From positions 1 to 43,420 of IMG/VR virus record IMGVR_UViG_3300009506_000068: a stretch of DNA of 43,420 bases, one strand, 5' to 3'. The stretch's first letter is position 1, and every line of letters begins with the position of its first letter. The translations under genes and the position numbers were made by a program. This document shows, in pieces, positions 1,880 through 16,612 of the stretch. The stretch comes from a virus. The notes under the pieces were generated by a model, which was not told the origin of the DNA, did not search any database, and was given only the letters and a program-made list of their open reading frames with translations.

Positions 1880-2292
1880 ACATCGATATTAAAGTTTTTG
1901 AAAGTACATTTAGAAACACATTCAATCTATTCATTCGGATGCTACAAGATGGTAGATTACTCCATAAAGAACTATTGATGCTCGCTCTACAGTTTAAACA
2001 AAATTTACCTAAACTGAAAGAAATAGAAGAGTTAGAAAGACCGGCTATCTGTTCGGCTTGTAATGGTAAAAAATTTGGTTTGGGTTTTGTGGATAAAGGG
2101 CTTGGTGTTTTTGTTCCGGAATATTTTTGTGTTGATTGTAGTAGCTCGTACATAAAAAATGAATGGCGAGCACAAGATTTACTTTATACGGTGTTCACCG
2201 ACATCGATGCTTTAGATAGTCATATTAAAGAAATAAATAAACTTTCGAGGGATGCGATTGTTTTTACTTCAGAAACAAAAGGTGAAGCATGA
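1876..2292 (+). CDS. Zinc-ribbon hypothetical protein
   Basis: A 138-residue protein with an N-terminal helical part and a central zinc ribbon: ICSAC about residue 58 and FCVDC about residue 87 give C-x2-C / C-x2-C. The C-terminal part is helical. It overlaps its neighbours by four bases on both sides and directly precedes the Cas4-like nuclease gene, so it may take part in DNA or RNA transactions; this is inference from position. Confidence 0.55.
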   Translation: MNIDIKVFESTFRNTFNLFIRMLQDGRLLHKELLMLALQFKQNLPKLKEIEELERPAICSACNGKKFGLGFVDKGLGVFVPEYFCVDCSSSYIKNEWRAQDLLYTVFTDIDALDSHIKEINKLSRDAIVFTSETKGEA

Positions 2293-3059
2293 TTCACACT
2301 TCGGCTACGCAATTAGAAAAATTCAGAAGGTGTAAACGCATCATTGGATTTGAATATGTGGAAGGAAAGAAGCCACCACCAAGCCCTAAACAGGAATTTG
2401 GTTTGGATGTACACAGTAACTTAGAAAAATGGTTATCAAAAGGAAAATCGCCAGATAAAACATACGCTGGTGAAGTTGCGGCGCAAGCAATAAAAAAGAA
2501 TTTATTACCGACACCCTCATCGGCGCTTTTGGTTGAGCATAAATTCCAATTACCAATAAACGATACGGTATTCACCGGGTTTATTGATTGCTTGGTGCCA
2601 CCACGATTTGATGAAAACCCAGAAGTTATCGACCACAAAACAACTAGTGCAACAAAATATATCAAGACACTAGAAGATCTCAAAAAAGACCCACAAGCTT
2701 TAGGATATTCAGCGTATACGGCACTTAAATACAGTTACCCGTTAATTGATATTCGATGGATTTATTACGTGGCGAGTAATCCACAAAACGGTAAACGGCA
2801 GCCTGCCGGCGTACGTGCCGTTCAATTAACTTTTAATGTGTCATCTGAAGAATTTTTAGAAGAATGGGATTTGTTCGAATATGATTTGAAAGTGATTGCT
2901 AGAATCAGAAATGAAAAAATGAAAGGTTTGGATTTACCCCCGACAGTGGGTAGTTGTTCCGCGTTCGGGGGTTGTCCATATCAAGGGATTTGTAATCTTG
3001 GACCACAAGAGGTTTTAACGGCTGCAATAGAGGCCGACAAAAGAGAAAGAGGTTTTTAA
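2289..3059 (+). CDS. Cas4/RecB-like PD-(D/E)XK nuclease
   Basis: A 256-residue nuclease of the PD-(D/E)XK superfamily. The visible motif order is a histidine in GLDVHSNLEKWL, an acidic residue in FTGFIDCLVP, the D/E-x-K core in EVIDHKTTS, and Q-x3-Y in QALGYSAY. Four cysteines match the Cas4/AddB iron-sulfur pattern: C15 near the N-terminus and C223-x5-C229-x5-C235 at the C-terminus. It probably processes DNA ends during replication or recombination, as related phage exonucleases do. It overlaps the upstream gene by ATGA and sits directly before the helicase block. A standalone single-strand exonuclease role is the best guess. Confidence 0.85.
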   Translation: MIHTSATQLEKFRRCKRIIGFEYVEGKKPPPSPKQEFGLDVHSNLEKWLSKGKSPDKTYAGEVAAQAIKKNLLPTPSSALLVEHKFQLPINDTVFTGFIDCLVPPRFDENPEVIDHKTTSATKYIKTLEDLKKDPQALGYSAYTALKYSYPLIDIRWIYYVASNPQNGKRQPAGVRAVQLTFNVSSEEFLEEWDLFEYDLKVIARIRNEKMKGLDLPPTVGSCSAFGGCPYQGICNLGPQEVLTAAIEADKRERGF

Positions 3060-3060
3060 A

Positions 3061-3771
3061 ATGGGAATTTTGGACAAAATCAAAGGTGTTATCAAAGAAA
3101 AAGAACAAGAAGAGCAAACGACTGAAAGCGGAAGCTTGAAAGAGCAACTGCAAGCACTGGGAGATAAAAAAGAGGTCAACCCACCCCCCGAGCAACCACA
3201 AAGCCTCCCATTGTTGGGACACCAAATTACTTTAACTGGTAACGAGGGTTCTCCACCAGTAACAGTGCCTGTTGAATCACCACCAGAAAAAGCAGATGAA
3301 GGGCAGGTTTGTCCCACGTGCAAAAAAACCTTCAAACGCTTAGGAAAACATGTTTGTAAAGAAGCGAAACAGCCGCCGAAAAATGAACAACCACCAGAAA
3401 CACAAACACCACCATCTCAAGAAAACGGCCAAATCGGTTTGAAAAAAGGTGAACAATTAAAAATGCATGCCACAATCCACAATTATCTTTTACTCATCGA
3501 TTGTCATCTCATCAGTCCCGAACGCGGCACGGTAGTTGATGCTCGCGACCTTTGCGCGACAGCAAAAGAAGCTGTTTGCGAAGCCAAAAATATTGAACAC
3601 TGGAAAGCTGTACCTTACGGTGAAGGTCCGGCACAGCTAGAACTTTATTTCGCGTTGTGGTTCGAGCAAAATTCTTTTTCCGGATTCATCGAAATCGATT
3701 CACGCTCGTTAGAATACCAAGCGATCATTCAAACACTCAAAAAATACGCCACTGAAATTATTAAAGGATGA
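3061..3771 (+). CDS. Proline-rich zinc-finger protein
   Basis: A 236-residue protein in three parts: an acidic/basic helical N-terminus, a proline-rich linker (about residues 40-130) carrying a C-x2-C-x9-H-x-C finger (C84, C87, H97, C99), and a folded C-terminal domain (about residues 145-236). The finger sequence CPTCKKTFKRLGKHVC resembles small C2HC fingers. No family was recognised for the C-terminal domain. It lies between the nuclease and the helicase, with its stop overlapping the helicase start, so a partner role for one of these is plausible. Confidence 0.55.
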   Translation: MGILDKIKGVIKEKEQEEQTTESGSLKEQLQALGDKKEVNPPPEQPQSLPLLGHQITLTGNEGSPPVTVPVESPPEKADEGQVCPTCKKTFKRLGKHVCKEAKQPPKNEQPPETQTPPSQENGQIGLKKGEQLKMHATIHNYLLLIDCHLISPERGTVVDARDLCATAKEAVCEAKNIEHWKAVPYGEGPAQLELYFALWFEQNSFSGFIEIDSRSLEYQAIIQTLKKYATEIIKG

Positions 3772-5468
3772 CTCTTTTAGAAAAATTGCTCGAAAAAACG
3801 GGCCAAAAATGGCTGTCACGTGATGTCGGCGAGGACGGCAAACGGCATTATATACGTGCTATTTCGGAAACTAACGAACTAAGGCGCATCTTAGCTTTAC
3901 CAATGCGCTCTTATGAATGTGCTTTGCCTGAAATTTCAAAGCTCGTAACGGCCGAATTAAAGACACCAAAAGGAATTATGAAACTTTGGCCGATACAAGC
4001 CGCTGCCCTCGCCGACATCGCTTACTGTAAAGGCGCTCTGTGCCCCATTAAGGTGGGTAGGGGAAAGACCCTTATTTCTTTACTCGCTCCGTCCGTTTTG
4101 GAAGCCGAACGCCCCCTACTGCTCGTACCTGCGAATCTTAGAGACAAAACTCTAAGCTATGACTTACCGGAATTAAAAAAACACTGGAAAATTCATGAAA
4201 ATTTAAAAGTGGTTGGTTATTCAGAAATTTCTTTAGAAAAAAACAAGGATTTGCTTTTTGAAATCAACCCTGATGTCATTATCTGTGACGAATGCCACTA
4301 TCTCAGAAATCCACGTAGTGGGCGAACACGTCGTGTAACACGTTACTTAAAAAGCTTTCCTCAAACCGCCTTCATCGGCTTATCAGGTACGGTAGCTCAA
4401 AGGTCATTCACGGATTGGGCACATCTATGTGAATGGGCTCTTCACGCCGGATCTCCCCTTCCGCGCAATTGGAATGAGCTTAATGAATGGTCACTTTATT
4501 TTGATGCTACCGTGCCTGATGAGTCCCGCCCTTTACCAGGCGCATTGCGGAAATTATGTAGTGGTTCGGAGAGTATTCAGGAGGCTTGGAAACGGCGTTT
4601 TAATTCTACCCCTGGAATAGTCGTGTCAGATGGTGAAGATGTCTCAGCGTCCCTCGTGCTTAATCTCAACACCAAACCAATAACAGATCTCAATATACAA
4701 GAAGCGCTTAACAGGCTTAGGAATCGGTGGGAGACTCCCGACGGTGACCCTATCATAAATGCTGTGGATATGCAGCGACATATTCGGACGCTGGCATTAG
4801 GATTTTACTATGTCTGGGAACCTAAACCACCAGAATCATGGTTAAGCGCTCGTCGATCGTGGAAAAAATATGTTCGTGAAGTGCTCAAACACAATCGTCG
4901 TGGACTAGACACAGAATTACAGGTTTGGAACGAGTCAAAACGTAATCCACATGAAGAATGGATACACTGGGAAGATATTAAAAATACATTCAAACCAAAT
5001 TCTATAGCAGTTTGGGTTTCTGACACACTCATCAATCAATGTTCCGAATGGCTCAGAGATAACGATGGTATCGTGTGGACACTACATATGTCATTCGGTG
5101 AACGTCTCGCCAAATGCTCTGGTTATCCTTACTTTGGAGCTGGTGACGACAGTATCAACGGCACACAACAAACAAAAATAATAGCGTCTATTAGAGCTCA
5201 TGGTGAAGGAAAGAATTTGCAACGCTATTCACGAGCGCTCGTGGCCGCTCCTCCCGGCAGTGGTAAAACTTGGGAACAACTACTTGGAAGGATGCATAGA
5301 GACGGCCAGCAAGCGGATGAGGTTGTTTACGACGTGCTTTTACACGAGCCGGAATTAGTTGATTGTTTAAAAAGAGCTTACGACGAATCGGAATACATTG
5401 AAAAAACCTACGGTAATCGGCAAAAACTGAGGTATGCCGCAATAATAGAAAACCAAAACGAAAGGTAA
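3768..5468 (+). CDS. SNF2-type DEAD/DEAH helicase
   Basis: A 566-residue superfamily 2 helicase. A Q-motif-like LWPIQAAALADI precedes the Walker A VGRGKT (K100). Walker B is DECH (residues 174-177), motif III is SGTV, and a motif VI-like GRMHRDGQQ lies near residue 507. The R-x-x-R-x-G-Q pattern is typical of SNF2 relatives. It would move along DNA using ATP during phage replication or repair. It is the first of two SNF2-like proteins in this genome, the other being fused to a methyltransferase at 8258. It starts inside the previous stop. Confidence 0.85.
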   Translation: MTLLEKLLEKTGQKWLSRDVGEDGKRHYIRAISETNELRRILALPMRSYECALPEISKLVTAELKTPKGIMKLWPIQAAALADIAYCKGALCPIKVGRGKTLISLLAPSVLEAERPLLLVPANLRDKTLSYDLPELKKHWKIHENLKVVGYSEISLEKNKDLLFEINPDVIICDECHYLRNPRSGRTRRVTRYLKSFPQTAFIGLSGTVAQRSFTDWAHLCEWALHAGSPLPRNWNELNEWSLYFDATVPDESRPLPGALRKLCSGSESIQEAWKRRFNSTPGIVVSDGEDVSASLVLNLNTKPITDLNIQEALNRLRNRWETPDGDPIINAVDMQRHIRTLALGFYYVWEPKPPESWLSARRSWKKYVREVLKHNRRGLDTELQVWNESKRNPHEEWIHWEDIKNTFKPNSIAVWVSDTLINQCSEWLRDNDGIVWTLHMSFGERLAKCSGYPYFGAGDDSINGTQQTKIIASIRAHGEGKNLQRYSRALVAAPPGSGKTWEQLLGRMHRDGQQADEVVYDVLLHEPELVDCLKRAYDESEYIEKTYGNRQKLRYAAIIENQNER

Positions 5469-5473
5469 GAGAA

Positions 5474-6013
5474 ATGGGATTATTAGACCAAATGCAACAA
5501 AATCAAGGTAAGAAAACAGAAGGTTTTCAGCAAAAATCGTTCGATCCATTCGACCAGATCGGTGGAGCAACCCCGTCCACACGTTCGAACTACCCTGAAC
5601 CAGGTATTTATCCTGTCCTGTATTGCGAACAACTCAAAGTCATCACAAGTAGGAAAGGAGATACACTTTTTGTGGCAGAATTTACTATTCTGGAATCGAA
5701 TGTAGAATCACGGCCTAAAGGGATGACTATGTCTTGGGTTCCCAGTTTTCGTTGGGACAGCACGCCGGGAAATGTTCGGGAATTTCTGGCTATCCTTACG
5801 AATTCAAAAATTGAAGAAGTCACTGCAGAAGTTTCGAGGCTCGTTACTAGCGAAACGAACCCACTACGTGGACGGTTGATTAAACTAGAAGCCACGAACA
5901 GGAAACGTGAAGGAAAAACAGACATCACCAATTTAAAATGGGTGTCTATTCCAGAGGAATATCAAGAGAAGGCTGAAGAGTTGCGTCGAATGGTTTGTGA
6001 GGTTCCTTTCTAG
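5474..6013 (+). CDS. Possible ssDNA-binding, DUF669-like protein
   Basis: A 179-residue protein placed between helicase and polymerase. After a Gln/Gly-rich N-terminus, it has PEPGIYPVLYCEQLKV, KGDTLFVAEFTILES and a VREFLA segment. This resembles DUF669-type phage proteins, often suspected to bind single-stranded DNA through an OB-like barrel. The neighbourhood and the acidic end support, but do not prove, an SSB role. The ribosome site AGGTAAGAG precedes the ATG. Confidence 0.5.
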   Translation: MGLLDQMQQNQGKKTEGFQQKSFDPFDQIGGATPSTRSNYPEPGIYPVLYCEQLKVITSRKGDTLFVAEFTILESNVESRPKGMTMSWVPSFRWDSTPGNVREFLAILTNSKIEEVTAEVSRLVTSETNPLRGRLIKLEATNRKREGKTDITNLKWVSIPEEYQEKAEELRRMVCEVPF

Positions 6014-6024
6014 GAGGTAGGTGC

Positions 6025-7902
6025 ATGCGCCCAATCATCGCGATAGATACAGAAACAGAATTAATTAAACGGGAAAACCAAGCGCCGGTTATCGTGTGTC
6101 TCTCATGGGCGAGCGCCCGAGATACAGGAATAATAACTGGAAAAGACGAAATCGAAAATTACCTCAGTATTTTGTTACGGCAAGTCCCGGATATGCAGAT
6201 CGTCGGTCATCACATCGCGTATGATTGGGCGTGTGTTTTAGCTAATTTCCCAAATCTTTGGGAACTGGTTTTTAGAGCATATGACCTAGATGGCATTCTT
6301 TGCACACAAACGCGTGAAAAACTACTTGACATAGAAATAGGCGAATTTAGAGGGCATATAGAGAATGATTCTGATAAACGAAAAAAACACGGATATTCCC
6401 TTGGTGAAATATGCGAGCGGCGTTTGGGTCGGCACTTGGATAAGGGAGAAGACGGTTGGCGCTTGCGATACGGTGAATTGTTAAACGTGCCTTTGGACCA
6501 ATGGCCACAGCGTGCGATTGATTACGCCAAGGACGACGCGCGGAATACATTTGATTTGTATATGGACCAACAAAAACGCGCATCGCGCCGCAACTATAAT
6601 CTGCCTACACAACACCTCGACACAAAAGCAGATTTCGCTTTGAAATTGATGTCCGCTTGGGGCATCGCTGTTGATGTCCCGCGCGCCAAGAAACTGCTTG
6701 AAGAAAAAGAAGCTGAAAAAGAAAACCTGGCGTTACGGCTCAGTGAGGTCGGTTTAGTCAATTATAAACCGATGCGTATTGAAAAAGATTTATTCGGAAA
6801 TGCCGAAATCATTCCCGGAGTGATGAAACGGCAATTAAAAAATATCCGTGAATTGGTAAAAAAAACACACCCTAACCCGCCGTGTACCCCGAGCGGGTTG
6901 ATTCAAACCACAGCCGAAGTTTTGGAAGATTGCAAACATCCCGATCTTACCGCCCTGGGTGAATACACAGGGTTGGAAAAAACAATATCCACATACCTAT
7001 CAAAATTGATTGTATCCCCAATTCACGCACGATTTAATACTATTGGAGCGGTCAGCAATCGAACATCGTGTAGTGATCCAAATCTACAAAATCAGCCGCG
7101 AATGCCAGGTGTACGCGAATGTTTTATTCCAAGACCTGGTTATGTGTTTTTAGCGTGTGACCAATCCACACAAGAGCTCCGAACATTGGCGCAATCGTGT
7201 TTGGATTTGTTTGGGCATTCACTGCTCGCCGAAAAATTTCAAAAAGATTTGTCTTTCGATCCGCACATGGAGTTTGCTCTGGCGCTGGCCAATGGAGATG
7301 TTATACAGGCTAAGGATCTTAGGTATCGGGCGAAGACCGCTAATTTTGGTTACGCTGGTGGCATGGGGGCAGAGAAGTTTGTAAAATACGCAAAAAATAG
7401 CGGAGTAAATTTAACGGAACAAGAAGCCGAGTTTTTGCGTGATGCTTGGCTCAAGCAATGGCCGGAAATGTCAAAGTATTTCAAGCGTGTATCGAAAATG
7501 CTGGGGAAACACGAGTTCATCACGGTAGAACATCCGCGTTCAGGGTTTCGCCGAGCTCGATGTCGTTACACGGATACTTGTAATTCGTATTTTCAGATCC
7601 TCGCCGCGCATGCGAGCAAAGAAGGGCTCTACGAAGTCGTCAAGCGCTGCTATATCGGCAGAGACTCATACCTGTATGGCTCGCGCCCTATTGCGTTTAT
7701 CCACGACGAAAACATCACCGAAACCCCCGAAGAAGCGGGGCACGAAGCGGCACAGGAAATGGGCAAGGTTATGGAAAACGCGCAAGCAAAATGGACGCCT
7801 GACATTCCACCAAAAACTGAAGCGGTCCTGATGCGTGTATGGAGCAAAAAAGCAAAACCGGTTTTCGAAAACGGAAAACTGGTTCCTTGGGAGGAAAAGT
7901 AA
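6025..7902 (+). CDS. Family A DNA polymerase with 3'-5' exonuclease
   Basis: A 625-residue replicative polymerase. The N-terminal proofreading domain has ExoI IDTET (D8, E10), ExoII GHHIAYDW (D67) and ExoIII Y167-x3-D171. The polymerase domain has motif A CDQSTQELR (D379), motif B RYRAKTANFGYAGG (K437, F441) and motif C HDE (D561). No 5'-3' exonuclease domain is present. In motif B the tyrosine expected four residues after F441 (Y766 in E. coli Pol I) is a glycine. GYAGGMG-type O-helices like this occur in phage polymerases. A strong AGGAGGT site precedes the start. It should copy the phage genome together with the flanking helicases. Confidence 0.95.
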   Translation: MRPIIAIDTETELIKRENQAPVIVCLSWASARDTGIITGKDEIENYLSILLRQVPDMQIVGHHIAYDWACVLANFPNLWELVFRAYDLDGILCTQTREKLLDIEIGEFRGHIENDSDKRKKHGYSLGEICERRLGRHLDKGEDGWRLRYGELLNVPLDQWPQRAIDYAKDDARNTFDLYMDQQKRASRRNYNLPTQHLDTKADFALKLMSAWGIAVDVPRAKKLLEEKEAEKENLALRLSEVGLVNYKPMRIEKDLFGNAEIIPGVMKRQLKNIRELVKKTHPNPPCTPSGLIQTTAEVLEDCKHPDLTALGEYTGLEKTISTYLSKLIVSPIHARFNTIGAVSNRTSCSDPNLQNQPRMPGVRECFIPRPGYVFLACDQSTQELRTLAQSCLDLFGHSLLAEKFQKDLSFDPHMEFALALANGDVIQAKDLRYRAKTANFGYAGGMGAEKFVKYAKNSGVNLTEQEAEFLRDAWLKQWPEMSKYFKRVSKMLGKHEFITVEHPRSGFRRARCRYTDTCNSYFQILAAHASKEGLYEVVKRCYIGRDSYLYGSRPIAFIHDENITETPEEAGHEAAQEMGKVMENAQAKWTPDIPPKTEAVLMRVWSKKAKPVFENGKLVPWEEK

Positions 7903-8310
7903 ATGACGTACTTTGCGAACGTATTGAACAATAAACCAATCTATTTAGCTCACCCATATTCTCACATCTCCGATACAGTACGCGAGCATCGCTATATGTC
8001 CGTCACGATGATTGCGGCGGAGCTTGTTCAAAGTGGGCTACTCGTTTATTCGCCAATCACACACTCACATCCGATGGCAAAAATGGCGAGTTTGCCTATG
8101 GATTGGGCGTTTTGGGAAAAATACGACCGAGCATTTTTGGAAATGTGCAGTGAATTATGGGTAGTTGCTGCCGACGGGTGGCAGGATTCAAAAGGGATGG
8201 CCGCAGAAATACAAATCGCGAAAGAACTAAAACTCAAAATAAGATACTGGAAAGTTTATGATGGAAACAAATTACGAGAAATTTCTGAAGAACAAGCGAC
8301 ACAACGTTGA
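7903..8310 (+). CDS. DUF1937, nucleoside deoxyribosyltransferase-like
   Basis: A 135-residue protein of the DUF1937 type. The diagnostic parts are YLAHPYSH near the N-terminus, VYSPITHSHP in the middle, LPMDWAFWEKYDRAFL, and DGWQDSKGMAAEI. The fold is related to nucleoside 2-deoxyribosyltransferases, and such phage proteins are thought to act on nucleotides or modified bases. Placement right after the polymerase supports nucleotide metabolism, but the substrate is unknown. GGAGG lies just before the ATG. Its last 53 bases overlap the helicase-methyltransferase gene. Confidence 0.8.
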   Translation: MTYFANVLNNKPIYLAHPYSHISDTVREHRYMSVTMIAAELVQSGLLVYSPITHSHPMAKMASLPMDWAFWEKYDRAFLEMCSELWVVAADGWQDSKGMAAEIQIAKELKLKIRYWKVYDGNKLREISEEQATQR

Positions 8311-10582
8311 ACCTGTAGGGTTCAACATCGAGCTCGAAGATTTGAACGATAGCTTGTTTGCTTGGCAAAAGGCTATCGTACGATGGGCGTTACACCGTGG
8401 CCGTGCGGCATTGTTTGAGGATTGCGGATTGGGTAAGAGTTTACAACAACTCGAATGGGCATCTCAAATCAACAGGATGGTTATCGGTGATGTATTGATC
8501 CTTGCGCCACTTGCGGTTGCCCAGCAAACAAAACGAGAAGCCGACAAGTTTGGAATCACCACTCCGGTAACTGTTTGTAAAAAACAAACAGACGTGCGTC
8601 CCGGAATCAATATTACAAATTACGAAAAACTACATCATTTCAACTGCAATTCTTTTAAGGGGATTGTTCTCGACGAAAGCTCAATCCTAAAATCATTTGA
8701 TGGCAAAACCAGACGACAGCTAACCGATTTCGTGAAAAGAATCCCATACCGGCTTTGTTGCACTGCGACGCCCGCACCTAACGACCTGATTGAGATCACA
8801 AATCATGCCGAATTCCTTGACATCATGAGCGGAAAGGAAATAATCGCTCTGTTTTTCAAACAAGACGGGAACACTACACATAAATGGAGACTCAAAGGTC
8901 ACGCCAAACAAGCCTTTTGGGAGTGGCTTTCCGAGTGGTCGATTGCTATCAGGAAACCGTCCGATATTGGTTACGACGATAATGGGTTTGTATTGCCCCC
9001 GCTAAAAATGCACCAGATTACAACAGATGGAAAACCAAAGGAAGGGTGGTTATTTGTCGATGAAGCGCGGACATTGAAAGAACGCCGTGATGCCCGCAGG
9101 GATTCGCTCGATGACAGAATAAAAGCATGTTCGGATCTCGTGAACAATTCGAAAGAAAAATGGATAGTGTGGTGTGATTTAAATATCGAAAGCGATGCAC
9201 TGACCAAAGCAATACCGGACGCTATCGAAATTCGCGGGAGTCATGACCAGCAATACAAAGAGGACAAATTGCTAGGGTTTATCAATGGTGATTATCGGGT
9301 ATTGGTCACCAAACCGAGCATTGCGGGACATGGAATCAACGCCCAAATATGTTGGAATATGGCATTCGTCGGACTATCCGACTCGTACGAACTAATGTAC
9401 CAGGCGACAAGGCGCTGTTGGCGATACGGACAAAAGCACGAGGTGAATTGCTATGTGATAACTGGAGAATCCGAAGGTGCGGTTGTCCGAAACATCGAAC
9501 GAAAAGAACTTCAAGCAAAAGAAATGTTCGACGAAATTATAAAAAACATGTCCGTCCACGAGCTGAACAAAAAAGCAAAGAGAACTGAAATGACATACAA
9601 AAAAGAAATAGAAAACGGTGAGGACTGGGTATTGTATCTAGGGGATAGTGTCGAAGTGGTCAAAGAAATACCAGACGACATCATAGGTTTATCTGTCTTT
9701 TCGCCGCCATTTCCGGGCATGTACGCCTATACAAATTCGGCGCGTGATATAGGCAACGTCAAATCTATCGATGAGCTTATCAATCATTTCGCTTTCCTCA
9801 TGCAAGACATGCTGCGTATCACCATGCCTGGTAGGTGTTGTGCAATCCATCTGACTCAAGAGCCTGTGTTCAAGGGCAAAGACGGGTATGTCGGTCTGCG
9901 CGATTTTCGTGGCCGAATTATTATCAAAATGGAAGATGCCGGATGGATTTATTATGGTGAAGTTACGATTGATAAAAACCCACAAGTAAAAGCCAGCCGG
10001 ACCAAAGAAAGTACTCTACTTTTCAAGACACTTTCACAAGACTCGTCGAACGTTCGGCCAGCGCTCGCCGATTATCTTTTGATTTTCAAAAAACGCGGTG
10101 ACAACACAGTGCCTATCCCTGCGGGCAGCCACGAGCGATGGAATAAAGGCGGCGGATGGATAACACCGGAAGAGTGGTGTGAGTGGGCATCCCCGGTATG
10201 GTACCGCCAAATGCCGAACGATGGGCGATTCCCTAACTACCCATCTCGGGACCAAGAAACAGACGGCATCCGGGAAACAGACGTATTGCAGGTCAGAAAG
10301 GCTAAAGAGAGCGACGATGAGAAGCACCTTTGTCCCCTACAACTAGGAGTGATCGAACGTGCAATTAAACTATGGAGTGCTCCCGGCGATGTTGTATTTT
10401 CCCCGTTCGCCGGAATCGGGTCCGAAGGATACCAAGCGCTTAGACTTGGCCGACAATTTATCGGTATCGAGTTGAAGGAATCTTACTGGAAGGTTGCTTG
10501 TGAGAATCTTAAACAAGCGATTAGAAATCAGGAAAACGAACAAGTGGATTTATTTGCCAACATCAAAGGAGAAAACCAATGA
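8258..10582 (+). CDS. SNF2 helicase fused to beta-class DNA methyltransferase
   Basis: A 774-residue two-domain protein. Residues about 30-450 are an SNF2-like helicase: Q motif FAWQ (Q37), Walker A GLGKS (K60), DESS (139-142), TAT (169-171) and motif VI QATRRCWRYGQ (from 382). Residues about 455-774 are an amino-methyltransferase. Its catalytic motif IV is SPPF (482-485) and the AdoMet-binding motif I SPFAGIGSEG follows at 715-724. The IV-before-I order is the beta class, and SPPF favours N4-cytosine or N6-adenine methylation. No endonuclease domain is seen. It may modify phage DNA to resist restriction, with the helicase scanning DNA. A second ATG directly follows the first, and GGAAAG lies upstream. 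Confidence 0.9.
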   Translation: MMETNYEKFLKNKRHNVEPVGFNIELEDLNDSLFAWQKAIVRWALHRGRAALFEDCGLGKSLQQLEWASQINRMVIGDVLILAPLAVAQQTKREADKFGITTPVTVCKKQTDVRPGINITNYEKLHHFNCNSFKGIVLDESSILKSFDGKTRRQLTDFVKRIPYRLCCTATPAPNDLIEITNHAEFLDIMSGKEIIALFFKQDGNTTHKWRLKGHAKQAFWEWLSEWSIAIRKPSDIGYDDNGFVLPPLKMHQITTDGKPKEGWLFVDEARTLKERRDARRDSLDDRIKACSDLVNNSKEKWIVWCDLNIESDALTKAIPDAIEIRGSHDQQYKEDKLLGFINGDYRVLVTKPSIAGHGINAQICWNMAFVGLSDSYELMYQATRRCWRYGQKHEVNCYVITGESEGAVVRNIERKELQAKEMFDEIIKNMSVHELNKKAKRTEMTYKKEIENGEDWVLYLGDSVEVVKEIPDDIIGLSVFSPPFPGMYAYTNSARDIGNVKSIDELINHFAFLMQDMLRITMPGRCCAIHLTQEPVFKGKDGYVGLRDFRGRIIIKMEDAGWIYYGEVTIDKNPQVKASRTKESTLLFKTLSQDSSNVRPALADYLLIFKKRGDNTVPIPAGSHERWNKGGGWITPEEWCEWASPVWYRQMPNDGRFPNYPSRDQETDGIRETDVLQVRKAKESDDEKHLCPLQLGVIERAIKLWSAPGDVVFSPFAGIGSEGYQALRLGRQFIGIELKESYWKVACENLKQAIRNQENEQVDLFANIKGENQ

Positions 10583-11220
10583 CAACAAAATTAGATTTCG
10601 TACCGAGTGATTTACTCATCGGCGCATCGAAAAACGCAAACGAACAAATTGCGGAAGTTGATGAGGTTACAGAACTAGTTAATGCTATGAGTATTAACAA
10701 CCAAACCGACCTAGAAAGCGCGGTACAAGTGGCCGCTGTTCTCATGGACGCAAATGACGAATTGGAGGATAAACGAAAAGAATGGACCGCGCCTTTAAAC
10801 GCTGTAGTATCTTCAATCAATGAAGCATTCTCACCAGTGCTCGAAAAAATATCAAGCGCAACCAAAGCCATAAAGCAAAAAATCAACAAAGCTGTAAAAG
10901 ATGCCGATGATGAAGGAAATCAATTGCTAGAACAAGTGGCCAATGCTACACCGGAGCAAAGAGAATTAATTTTAAAACGCGTTGAGGAGATCTCGTTCGA
11001 AAAAACAAAAGGACTTTCGTTCAGACACAACACATCTCCTAAAATTACCGATGAAACAAAACTTATCGATTGGGCGATTGAAAAAGGCATGCATCAATTA
11101 TTAAGTGTGAATATGAAAGCACTAAAAGGGATGCTTGGTAATTTCGAAAAAGCACCAGAAATACCTGGTGTAAAAATTTCGGAAACAAAGCAAGTTATTA
11201 TTACCAGATCGCGAGTTTAA
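10579..11220 (+). CDS. Coiled-coil replication-region protein with IPGV tail
   Basis: A 213-residue protein. The long N-terminal part (about residues 20-150) is a charged coiled coil containing DDELEDKRKEWTAPLNAVVS. The C-terminal part has GLSFRHNTSPKITDE, VNMKALKGML and EIPGVKI, a layout shared by phage proteins found near recombination and replication genes and usually of unknown function. The start overlaps the previous stop (ATGA), with AAAGGAG upstream. A role beside the polymerase and resolvase is likely, but the activity is not known. Confidence 0.6.
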   Translation: MTTKLDFVPSDLLIGASKNANEQIAEVDEVTELVNAMSINNQTDLESAVQVAAVLMDANDELEDKRKEWTAPLNAVVSSINEAFSPVLEKISSATKAIKQKINKAVKDADDEGNQLLEQVANATPEQRELILKRVEEISFEKTKGLSFRHNTSPKITDETKLIDWAIEKGMHQLLSVNMKALKGMLGNFEKAPEIPGVKISETKQVIITRSRV

Positions 11221-15561: not shown

Positions 15562-15923
15562 GTATTACTTTTGTTCTAGTTAGTTGTGGTTTGTTATCAC
15601 CTAAGACTATTGTTGTGAAAAAAGACGAGCATATTGATGCTCAAACAAAATCTTGTTTGTGGTTTGCTCATAAGTGCCTTGATTTGGAATATGCTATAGA
15701 AGACATGGAACTATCACAAGCCGATCTTGGGCTTATGATAGAAAACGATTTAGCATGCTGGGAAGAATGGCAGAATTCCGGATGTGCTGTTCTTCTTGAA
15801 GAATTACCCACAAAAACTAAAATAGAAATCCCAAAAGAACAAGTACGTAAAATAGAAATCCCACAAACTTTAACACCTATTAAATTACCAAAAAATCCAT
15901 ATGGAAAGGAGAAAAAGAAATGA
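15537..15923 (+). CDS. Outer-membrane lipoprotein, o-spanin candidate
   Basis: A 128-residue lipoprotein. The lipobox is L14-V15-S16-C17 at the end of a hydrophobic signal (IISITFVLVSC). The mature part holds a helical, cysteine-containing region and a C-terminal proline-rich tail with two KIEIP copies. A lipoprotein with a proline-rich region beside membrane coiled-coil genes is what an o-spanin (Rz1-like) would look like. It overlaps the HExxH gene by 25 bases and the caspase-like gene by four. Confidence 0.6.
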   Translation: MARKTYIISITFVLVSCGLLSPKTIVVKKDEHIDAQTKSCLWFAHKCLDLEYAIEDMELSQADLGLMIENDLACWEEWQNSGCAVLLEELPTKTKIEIPKEQVRKIEIPQTLTPIKLPKNPYGKEKKK

Positions 15924-16612
15924 ATATTTGTATCATCTATTCGAACACAAACACCAAAGGAAAGCACGATGCTTCGGGAGCTTTCGAACCCTACGCTGAA
16001 AAATTCCGAGTGCTCCACAAAGTACCCATCGATAATTGTACCGGCGTAAAATTCCCTGGTGTTCCTACGCCGAAAAGACGGCGCGTTGTCTATGACGCTA
16101 TTCACGCTAATGGTCGACGAGAAAAACTCGACATGCTAGCATTATTCATGCACGGCTGGCCGAGCGGGATTCAGGCGGGCGTCAATAAAAACAACCTCCC
16201 AAACTTCGTTGATCTTCTCACCCAAACCTGCAAACCCAGTGTGCGGATAGTTCTCTATGCGTGTCTGGCCGCTGAAAACGACGTTAGAGACTCCGAACGA
16301 AAAAGACTAGGCCCCGCTACTGATGGTGGATTTGCGGACACTCTACGCGACCTCATGAGCGCAGCAGGACTCACAGATGGGTGGGTAGATGCTCACAAGA
16401 CCGCAGGTAACGCCCTATGGAATCCATTCGTCGTGCGGTTCGTCTGTCAAGTACGTCCACAGCACGCCTATCCCGAGCTCTATCGTGGTGGCGCATGGCT
16501 CGTCGAACCGGGTTCACAATATTGGTCAGAGTGGTGCAAACACGATAACCTAGATCTCTGGTACCCCTTCATGACCCAAGCCCAAATTTTTCAGGAATTA
16601 GCTAATAGGTAA
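15920..16612 (+). CDS. Caspase-fold (clan CD) peptidase-like protein
   Basis: A 230-residue protein with a His-Gly / Ala-Cys dyad pattern. H78-G79 lies in LALFMHGWPSG and A114-C115 in RIVLYACLAAE, each at the end of a hydrophobic beta strand, 37 residues apart. This is the signature of caspase, metacaspase and CHAT-type clan CD peptidases. Later GGFADTLRDL and WNPFVVRF may complete the fold. Substrate and role are unknown; host-protein cleavage, wall lysis or defence evasion are possible. It is the last rightward gene and its end overlaps the convergent tail gene by 11 bases. Confidence 0.55.
   Translation: MNICIIYSNTNTKGKHDASGAFEPYAEKFRVLHKVPIDNCTGVKFPGVPTPKRRRVVYDAIHANGRREKLDMLALFMHGWPSGIQAGVNKNNLPNFVDLLTQTCKPSVRIVLYACLAAENDVRDSERKRLGPATDGGFADTLRDLMSAAGLTDGWVDAHKTAGNALWNPFVVRFVCQVRPQHAYPELYRGGAWLVEPGSQYWSEWCKHDNLDLWYPFMTQAQIFQELANR

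Follow-up and report, generated by a model that had tools for sequence, protein, structure and literature searches.

Phage SNF2-methyltransferase fusions with a predicted beta-clamp-binding C-terminal tail

A 774-residue protein encoded by a phage contig (the window: IMG/VR record IMGVR_UViG_3300009506_000068, positions 1 to 43,420) joins an SNF2-type motor to a beta-class DNA methyltransferase and ends in a short tail, ENEQVDLFANIKGENQ, in which the residues QVDLF (762-766) form a predicted binding motif for the bacterial sliding clamp. We lean towards the view that this protein is a translocase-methyltransferase of the phrog_16, or methylase-helicase-dyad, kind, recruited to the replication machinery by its C-terminal beta-clamp-binding peptide. 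The fusion itself is not new, since phrog_16 is a large recorded phage family, and the clamp-binding tail signature appears, from sequence, to be a previously unremarked part of it. The literature searched yielded no description of clamp-binding phage methyltransferases or of such a tail (which is no proof of novelty), and a 2024 review of beta-clamp clients mentions no methyltransferase, with 0 occurrences of "methyl" (PMC11139829). The fusion gene and its parts are these:

8258..10582, + strand: helicase-methyltransferase fusion, 774 aa, ATG start
8333..9550, + strand: SNF2-type motor domain, residues ~26-431 (Pfam SNF2-rel_dom/Helicase_C; structural match to INO80 ATPase)
8426..8440, + strand: Walker A/motif I, GLGKS, residues 57-61 (G57, G59 and K60 invariant in 31 homologues)
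8669..8683, + strand: motif II, LDESS, residues 138-142 (L138, D139, E140, S141 and S142 invariant)
9401..9433, + strand: motif VI, QATRRCWRYGQ, residues 382-392 (Q382, R386, R389 and G391 invariant, Q392 nearly so)
9623..10546, + strand: beta-class amino-methyltransferase domain, residues 456-763 (PF01555, E 2.6e-18; TTHA0409 fold)
9701..9712, + strand: methyltransferase motif IV, SPPF, residues 482-485 (S482, P484 and F485 invariant)
10043..10315, + strand: variable region between motif IV and motif X/I, residues ~596-686 (length-variable in the alignment)
10406..10429, + strand: methyltransferase motif I, FAGIGSEG, the AdoMet site, residues 717-724 (F717, G719, G721 and S722 invariant or nearly so)
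10541..10555, + strand: predicted beta-clamp-binding motif QVDLF, residues 762-766, at the start of the disordered tail

The initial annotation had read this ORF as a single polypeptide carrying both activities, and its coordinates prove exact, with Pfam, PHROG and fold in agreement. A ribosome-binding-like GGAAAG stands a few bases 5' of the ATG, and the stop codon shares a 4 nt overlap with the ATG of the next gene. Pfam places SNF2-rel_dom at residues 37-188 (E 3.7e-8), Helicase_C at 288-391 (E 2.7e-4, slightly below the cut-off) and N6_N4_Mtase at 479-747 (E 2.6e-18); the phrog_16 match covers residues 7-767, and thus both domains, with phrog_62 also matched at the motor, where a further motif, TATP, occupies residues 169-172. 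Structure prediction, proposed in the same annotation, returned a two-lobed SNF2 motor fold and a beta-class methyltransferase fold in an AlphaFold model of mean pLDDT 84.5 and pTM 0.79. The best structural neighbours of the motor are the INO80, ISWI and SNF2h ATPases (Z 30-33 over ~370 residues), the INO80 match reaching Z 33 over residues 26-431. Among the Foldseek matches listed, the methyltransferase part resembles TTHA0409 of Thermus thermophilus (TMt 0.82), an assignment drawn from Foldseek rows 43-44 together with sequence, as the structure comparison of the full model is dominated by SNF2 motors.

Motif IV precedes motif I, which is the beta-class order. The methyltransferase sequence matches CcrM, MboIIA and, around motif IV, the N4-cytosine enzyme PvuII. 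SPPF is the typical form of motif IV in N4-cytosine enzymes such as M.PvuII, so that m4C is at least as likely a product as m6A. Catalytic and AdoMet-binding residues, whose loss would have spoken against the initial reading, are in place: G57, G59, K60, D139, E140, R386, R389, S482, P484, F485 and G719 are all invariant in 31 aligned fused homologues. Residues ~596-686 have the lowest pLDDT within the methyltransferase domain and are a candidate target-recognition part.

The window virus is a myovirus, with tail sheath, baseplate, tape measure and terminase genes. The fusion lies, as originally proposed, in the replication block, together with genes for a PDDEXK exonuclease, an SF2 helicase and a family A polymerase; a DUF1937 gene and one that is weakly RuvC-like belong to the same early block:

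2289..3059, + strand: PDDEXK_1 exonuclease, recombination type (Pfam, PHROG)
3768..5468, + strand: separate SF2 helicase, phrog_62 (PHROG; Pfam SNF2 score below cut-off)
6025..7902, + strand: family A DNA polymerase with 3'-5' exonuclease domain (Pfam)
7903..8310, + strand: DUF1937/phrog_355 gene, nucleoside deoxyribosyltransferase-like, overlapping the fusion from upstream (Pfam, PHROG)
10579..11220, + strand: gene downstream of the fusion, 213 aa, with a match to phrog_10477 "exonuclease" at E 1.8e-11 (PHROG)

The gene at 3768-5468 had been called a second SNF2 helicase; it is indeed a separate SF2 helicase of phrog_62, and the narrower SNF2 label falls short of the Pfam threshold. The phrog_355 gene directly adjoins the fusion both in the window (7903-8310) and in vir525 (L002:10226-10555, there after the fusion). 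In a PADLOC search of part of the window ORFs, in which DISARM, BREX, Zorya and Dpd companions were sought, the helicase part gave weak matches to DrmD, DpdE and ZorD. Elsewhere in the window, a 230-aa ORF with no Pfam match (15920-16612) shows by eye a caspase-like HG/AC pattern (LFMHGWPSG...VLYACLAA), and the contig opens (1-75) with a 21-nt repeat in tandem, CGTGCGGGGAAACCTGTCCGG.

An SF2 motor acting with a methyltransferase that recognises its own site is also the layout of Type III (Mod/Res) and Type ISP systems, and the candidate internal recognition region of the window protein would add to the likeness. The fusion might on this account be a Type I/III/ISP-like restriction-modification enzyme in incomplete or derived form, its nuclease either lost or encoded at another place, and HNH or HTH genes do stand beside or between the two genes in some relatives. 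Those inserted HNH-like genes are sporadic, however, and no nuclease domain was found in the window protein or its conserved neighbours, unlike in the Type I, III and ISP enzymes. The original statement that no endonuclease is present holds for the fusion protein and the early-region window ORFs searched, where no restriction-type nuclease was found and the single nuclease match is the recombination-type PDDEXK_1 gene at 2289-3059. Nor does any restriction-endonuclease family recur among the commonest neighbours of the family at 204 loci. We regard a restriction-modification origin of this kind as most improbable.

The company of PolA, the PDDEXK exonuclease and the RuvC-like gene, with no DnaB found among the window ORFs searched, could instead point to a protein that is primarily a replication or recombination helicase, its methyltransferase regulating origin use or timing; many related loci likewise lack DnaB-like or primase-helicase genes in the fetched flanks. 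Against this, DnaB is found nearby at 43 related loci and a primase-helicase at 42, which argues that the family is no general replacement for them, and SNF2 motors usually translocate on duplex DNA without unwinding it (PMC5512222). A primary role as helicase is highly unlikely.

Fusions of this type had been thought to occur as scattered annotations in phages. They form instead a large family, phrog_16 (labelled "DNA helicase"), and the name "DNA methylase-helicase dyad", which covers fused and adjacent-gene forms alike, was already in use for phages and plasmids (PMC5512222). A scan of viral contigs with a single sequence found no relative, and an alignment-based search was needed; it brought at least 594 confirmed relatives from IMG/VR. 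The same fusion had been recommended as a search target in other phages, and tblastn matches 372 GenBank phage records; in 304 the match covers 80% or more of the protein. Actinophage members are already annotated as "DNA helicase/methylase", and an evolutionary study covers those of subfamily B (PMC9957025). The mycobacteriophage and Arthrobacter phage proteins so named match the window protein over its whole length, with the same domains in the same order; that study treats the subfamily-B proteins as methylases, leaves a helicase domain in them undiscussed and, in the portion considered here, describes no C-terminal motif. Both marks of the phrog_16 dyad are found in the window, namely an SNF2-type motor with intact motifs and a PF01555 methyltransferase with motifs IV and I.

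Across 288 loci the two activities are fused in 218 and split in 70, counts in which fused forms are over-represented because retrieval favours long matches. The genes of split loci mostly overlap or abut, in reversed order in a few. The fusion is not essential, because 56 of 204 representatives keep both activities as adjoining separate genes, and on a tree of these representatives the state changes between fused and split at least 26 times, 19 of the changes being forced by strongly supported branches. This co-conservation, fused or split, supports motor and methyltransferase as a functional unit. The closest relative of the window protein among the matches listed (L129, 63% identity) is itself split. 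Two subfamilies can be told apart: A, to which the window belongs, has SPPF at motif IV, whereas B has SIPF, is ~850 aa long and fused, and lacks the tail glutamine. The isoleucine in place of P483 is an unusual conserved variant, seen in subfamily B (L013-L018, L022) and in the cyanobacterial L183. A and B are swapped at one locus in related phages, as in Emma (A, split) versus Job42 (B, fused, insert-bearing) and Zucker (A, split) versus Hestia (B, fused), which suggests that they are interchangeable alleles of one function; among the actinophage loci, L005 differs from L022, and L021 from L015, in whether the A gene pair or the fused B gene occupies the site. At the L225 locus the family member is preceded by a second SNF2 helicase (L225:13-2478), which holds an HNH-bearing intein.

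After the last methyltransferase helix, the tails of the family are short and variable save for a signature, Q-x-[S/T/D]-L-F. Peptides that bind the beta clamp have the published form Q-phi-x-[L/M]-[F/L] or a hexameric variant, QLDLF being the strongest, and in the clamp clients Pol II, Pol IV, Hda and MutL a Q-phi-x-L-F sequence lies in a disordered terminus or loop (PMC11139829). The QVDLF of the window fits this motif, and the peptide bearing Q762, L765 and F766, ENEQVDLFANIK, runs into a predicted disordered region like those of the known clients; pLDDT below 50 at residues 763-774 of the AlphaFold model is as expected of a short linear motif. QxxLF occurs in the tails of 73 of 203 dereplicated members, compared with 2.2 expected in shuffled tails and 9 of 1225 (0.7%) neighbouring proteins; for the published motif (Q-phi-x-[LM][FL] or the hexamer) the counts are 44 of 203 members versus 6 of 1225 neighbouring ORFs. 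The scan patterns by which the family was fetched did not involve the tail. In pairs whose methyltransferase cores are 50-60% identical, the Q, L and F positions are 60, 77 and 64% identical, compared with 17% for the two spacer positions and 19% for the remaining tail (with a possible slight bias of the tail alignment towards Q, L and F).

The signature belongs to the methyltransferase, because none of the 56 separate helicases of split pairs carries a C-terminal QxxLF. It was also absent from other proteins of the same loci, namely DnaB (0/42), YqaJ (0/29), primase-helicases (0/40) and the clamps themselves (0/18). Nor is the motif a trait of every neighbouring methyltransferase, an idea that was considered and rejected: C5 methyltransferases next to the family have QxxLF in 0 of 39 cases. 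A relaxed form of the motif is the very C-terminus in 34 of 103 cases. Roughly one in two family members is without the canonical glutamine, among them L129 (SDDLF) and subfamily B ([MVL]P[SDTA]LF); loss of this residue weakens clamp binding, though among known clients it is important and not essential, the delta subunit being an exception (PMC11139829). A switch to a PIP-box in putatively archaeal members, where the clamp is PCNA, would have been strong support; the handful of such loci (with hosts predicted or MAG-based) has mixed tails: QTQLQTF, QASLFTF, NSKLNDF and NGSLF.

The motif is short, and its assignment to the clamp is a prediction. The LF residues might instead pack on the methyltransferase, or mediate dimerisation or binding to another protein; the motif directly follows the last methyltransferase helix, LF (74% of family tails) is commoner than the Q form (52%), and 5 of 30 chromosomal PF01555 methyltransferases share the motif. 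Against a non-clamp role stand the preference for Q-x-[ST/D]-L-F, which matches the published motif, the disorder of the tail in the model and the clustering of clamp genes with the family, and we judge such a role unlikely.

That clustering emerged from a survey of neighbouring ORFs at the 204 loci, in which unsupervised clusters were formed and the commonest then identified by Pfam. One cluster is the DNA polymerase III beta subunit with all three domains (full DNA_pol3_beta matches). A clamp gene lies near the family in 19 of 204 loci, 18 times in the flanks, always on the same strand as the family gene, and once between the two genes of a split pair. Nine of the 18 flank cases fall within 400 nt, where random placement would put 2.7 (p=0.0005); no significant crowding of this kind is seen at the 204 loci for DnaB, YqaJ, SSB or primase genes. 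The intervening clamp, the clearest case, belongs to Alteromonas phage XX1924 (L006), in which methyltransferase (5974-6975), clamp (6975-7988) and helicase (7988-9349) follow one another with 1-nt overlaps. This clamp, 337 aa long, is annotated only as hypothetical; the possibility that the ORF between the two genes is a nuclease was rejected, Pfam identifying it as a beta clamp. C5-cytosine methyltransferase genes are enriched beside the family as well: of the 37 loci having one, 15 hold it no more than 400 nt away (5.6 expected). Among the window ORFs searched there is no beta clamp gene, so that the DnaN of the host would be needed.

For the replication-recruited translocase-methyltransferase that we prefer, the following course can be proposed. 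The C-terminal tail would dock on the sliding clamp and bring the enzyme to newly replicated DNA, where the SNF2 motor, to judge by its fold and intact motifs, would use ATP to move along or remodel the duplex, and the methyltransferase would pass the methyl group of AdoMet to a base amino group, N4-cytosine at least as probably as N6-adenine. Phage copies would thus be modified while being made, and progeny would be shielded from restriction both where they arise and in the host infected next; the benefit would most likely be protection from restriction. The predicted clamp-binding tail and the clamp-gene neighbourhood lend support to the earlier suggestion that DNA is modified processively behind replication. 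The tail motif proves neither anti-restriction nor a replication-coupled role; DnaN also recruits repair factors.

Several known systems share parts of this design. DarB of phage P1 likewise couples a DNA methyltransferase to a SWI2/SNF2 ATPase; its methyltransferase is EcoKI/TaqI-like and N-terminal to the helicase, an LPD36 domain is also present, and the protein is a virion head component (PMC5512222), whereas the window fusion has a beta-class SPPF methyltransferase C-terminal to the motor and is encoded in an early replication block. In eukaryotic maintenance methylation, PCNA directs Dnmt1 to freshly made DNA (PMC9690074), a similar logic in that a sliding-clamp peptide brings the methyltransferase to new DNA; DNMT1 is not homologous, however, being a C5 enzyme without an SNF2 motor, and the bacterial clamp motif of the window is a predicted one.

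A simpler account would make the protein a plain orphan anti-restriction methyltransferase, protecting against host restriction-modification systems with a motor that adds processivity and a tail unrelated to replication. The subfamily-B genes of actinophages are patchy, often transferred and read as orphan methylases that protect phage DNA (PMC9957025), and the exchange of split A and fused B alleles at one locus in the Emma/Job42 and Zucker/Hestia pairs fits the same picture. It leaves unexplained, however, why Q, L and F are conserved amid a drifting tail and why clamp genes are adjacent, and in this plain form it is quite unlikely. The account is compatible with the clamp-recruited enzyme if the tail merely recruits.

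A similar tail is found in a second methyltransferase family. A single-domain phage DPPY methyltransferase that adjoins a family member (L188:3348-4001) was used as query, and its IMG/VR relatives (L294-L373) have a Qxx[LIM]-hydrophobic C-terminus in 63 of 78 cases, mostly as the last residues (examples are QVAMF, QERLF and QLDMF); the sample is slightly biased, as 1 of 6 search patterns touched the tail, but the majority of tails do not follow that pattern. Nor is such a tail confined to phages, since the 30 chromosomal PF01555 methyltransferases, 5 of which have the relaxed motif, come from one bacterial phylum. We put at about even the chance that many phage orphan amino-methyltransferases, from at least two families, are clamp clients that methylate genomes at the fork via the ring of the host or one of their own.

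Orphan methyltransferases are common in phages, and a clamp-docking tail may bear on how they reach every site of a fast-replicating genome. If the clamp-recruited reading is true, DNA methyltransferases would join the beta-clamp clients, from which they are absent in the 2024 review (PMC11139829), and the persistence of motor and methyltransferase together through at least 26 changes of fusion or fission would be explained. The signature could then help to single out in advance those phages whose genomes are modified as they replicate. Were the wider proposal for both families also true, prokaryotic viruses would have evolved replication-coupled methylation independently of DNMT1-PCNA.
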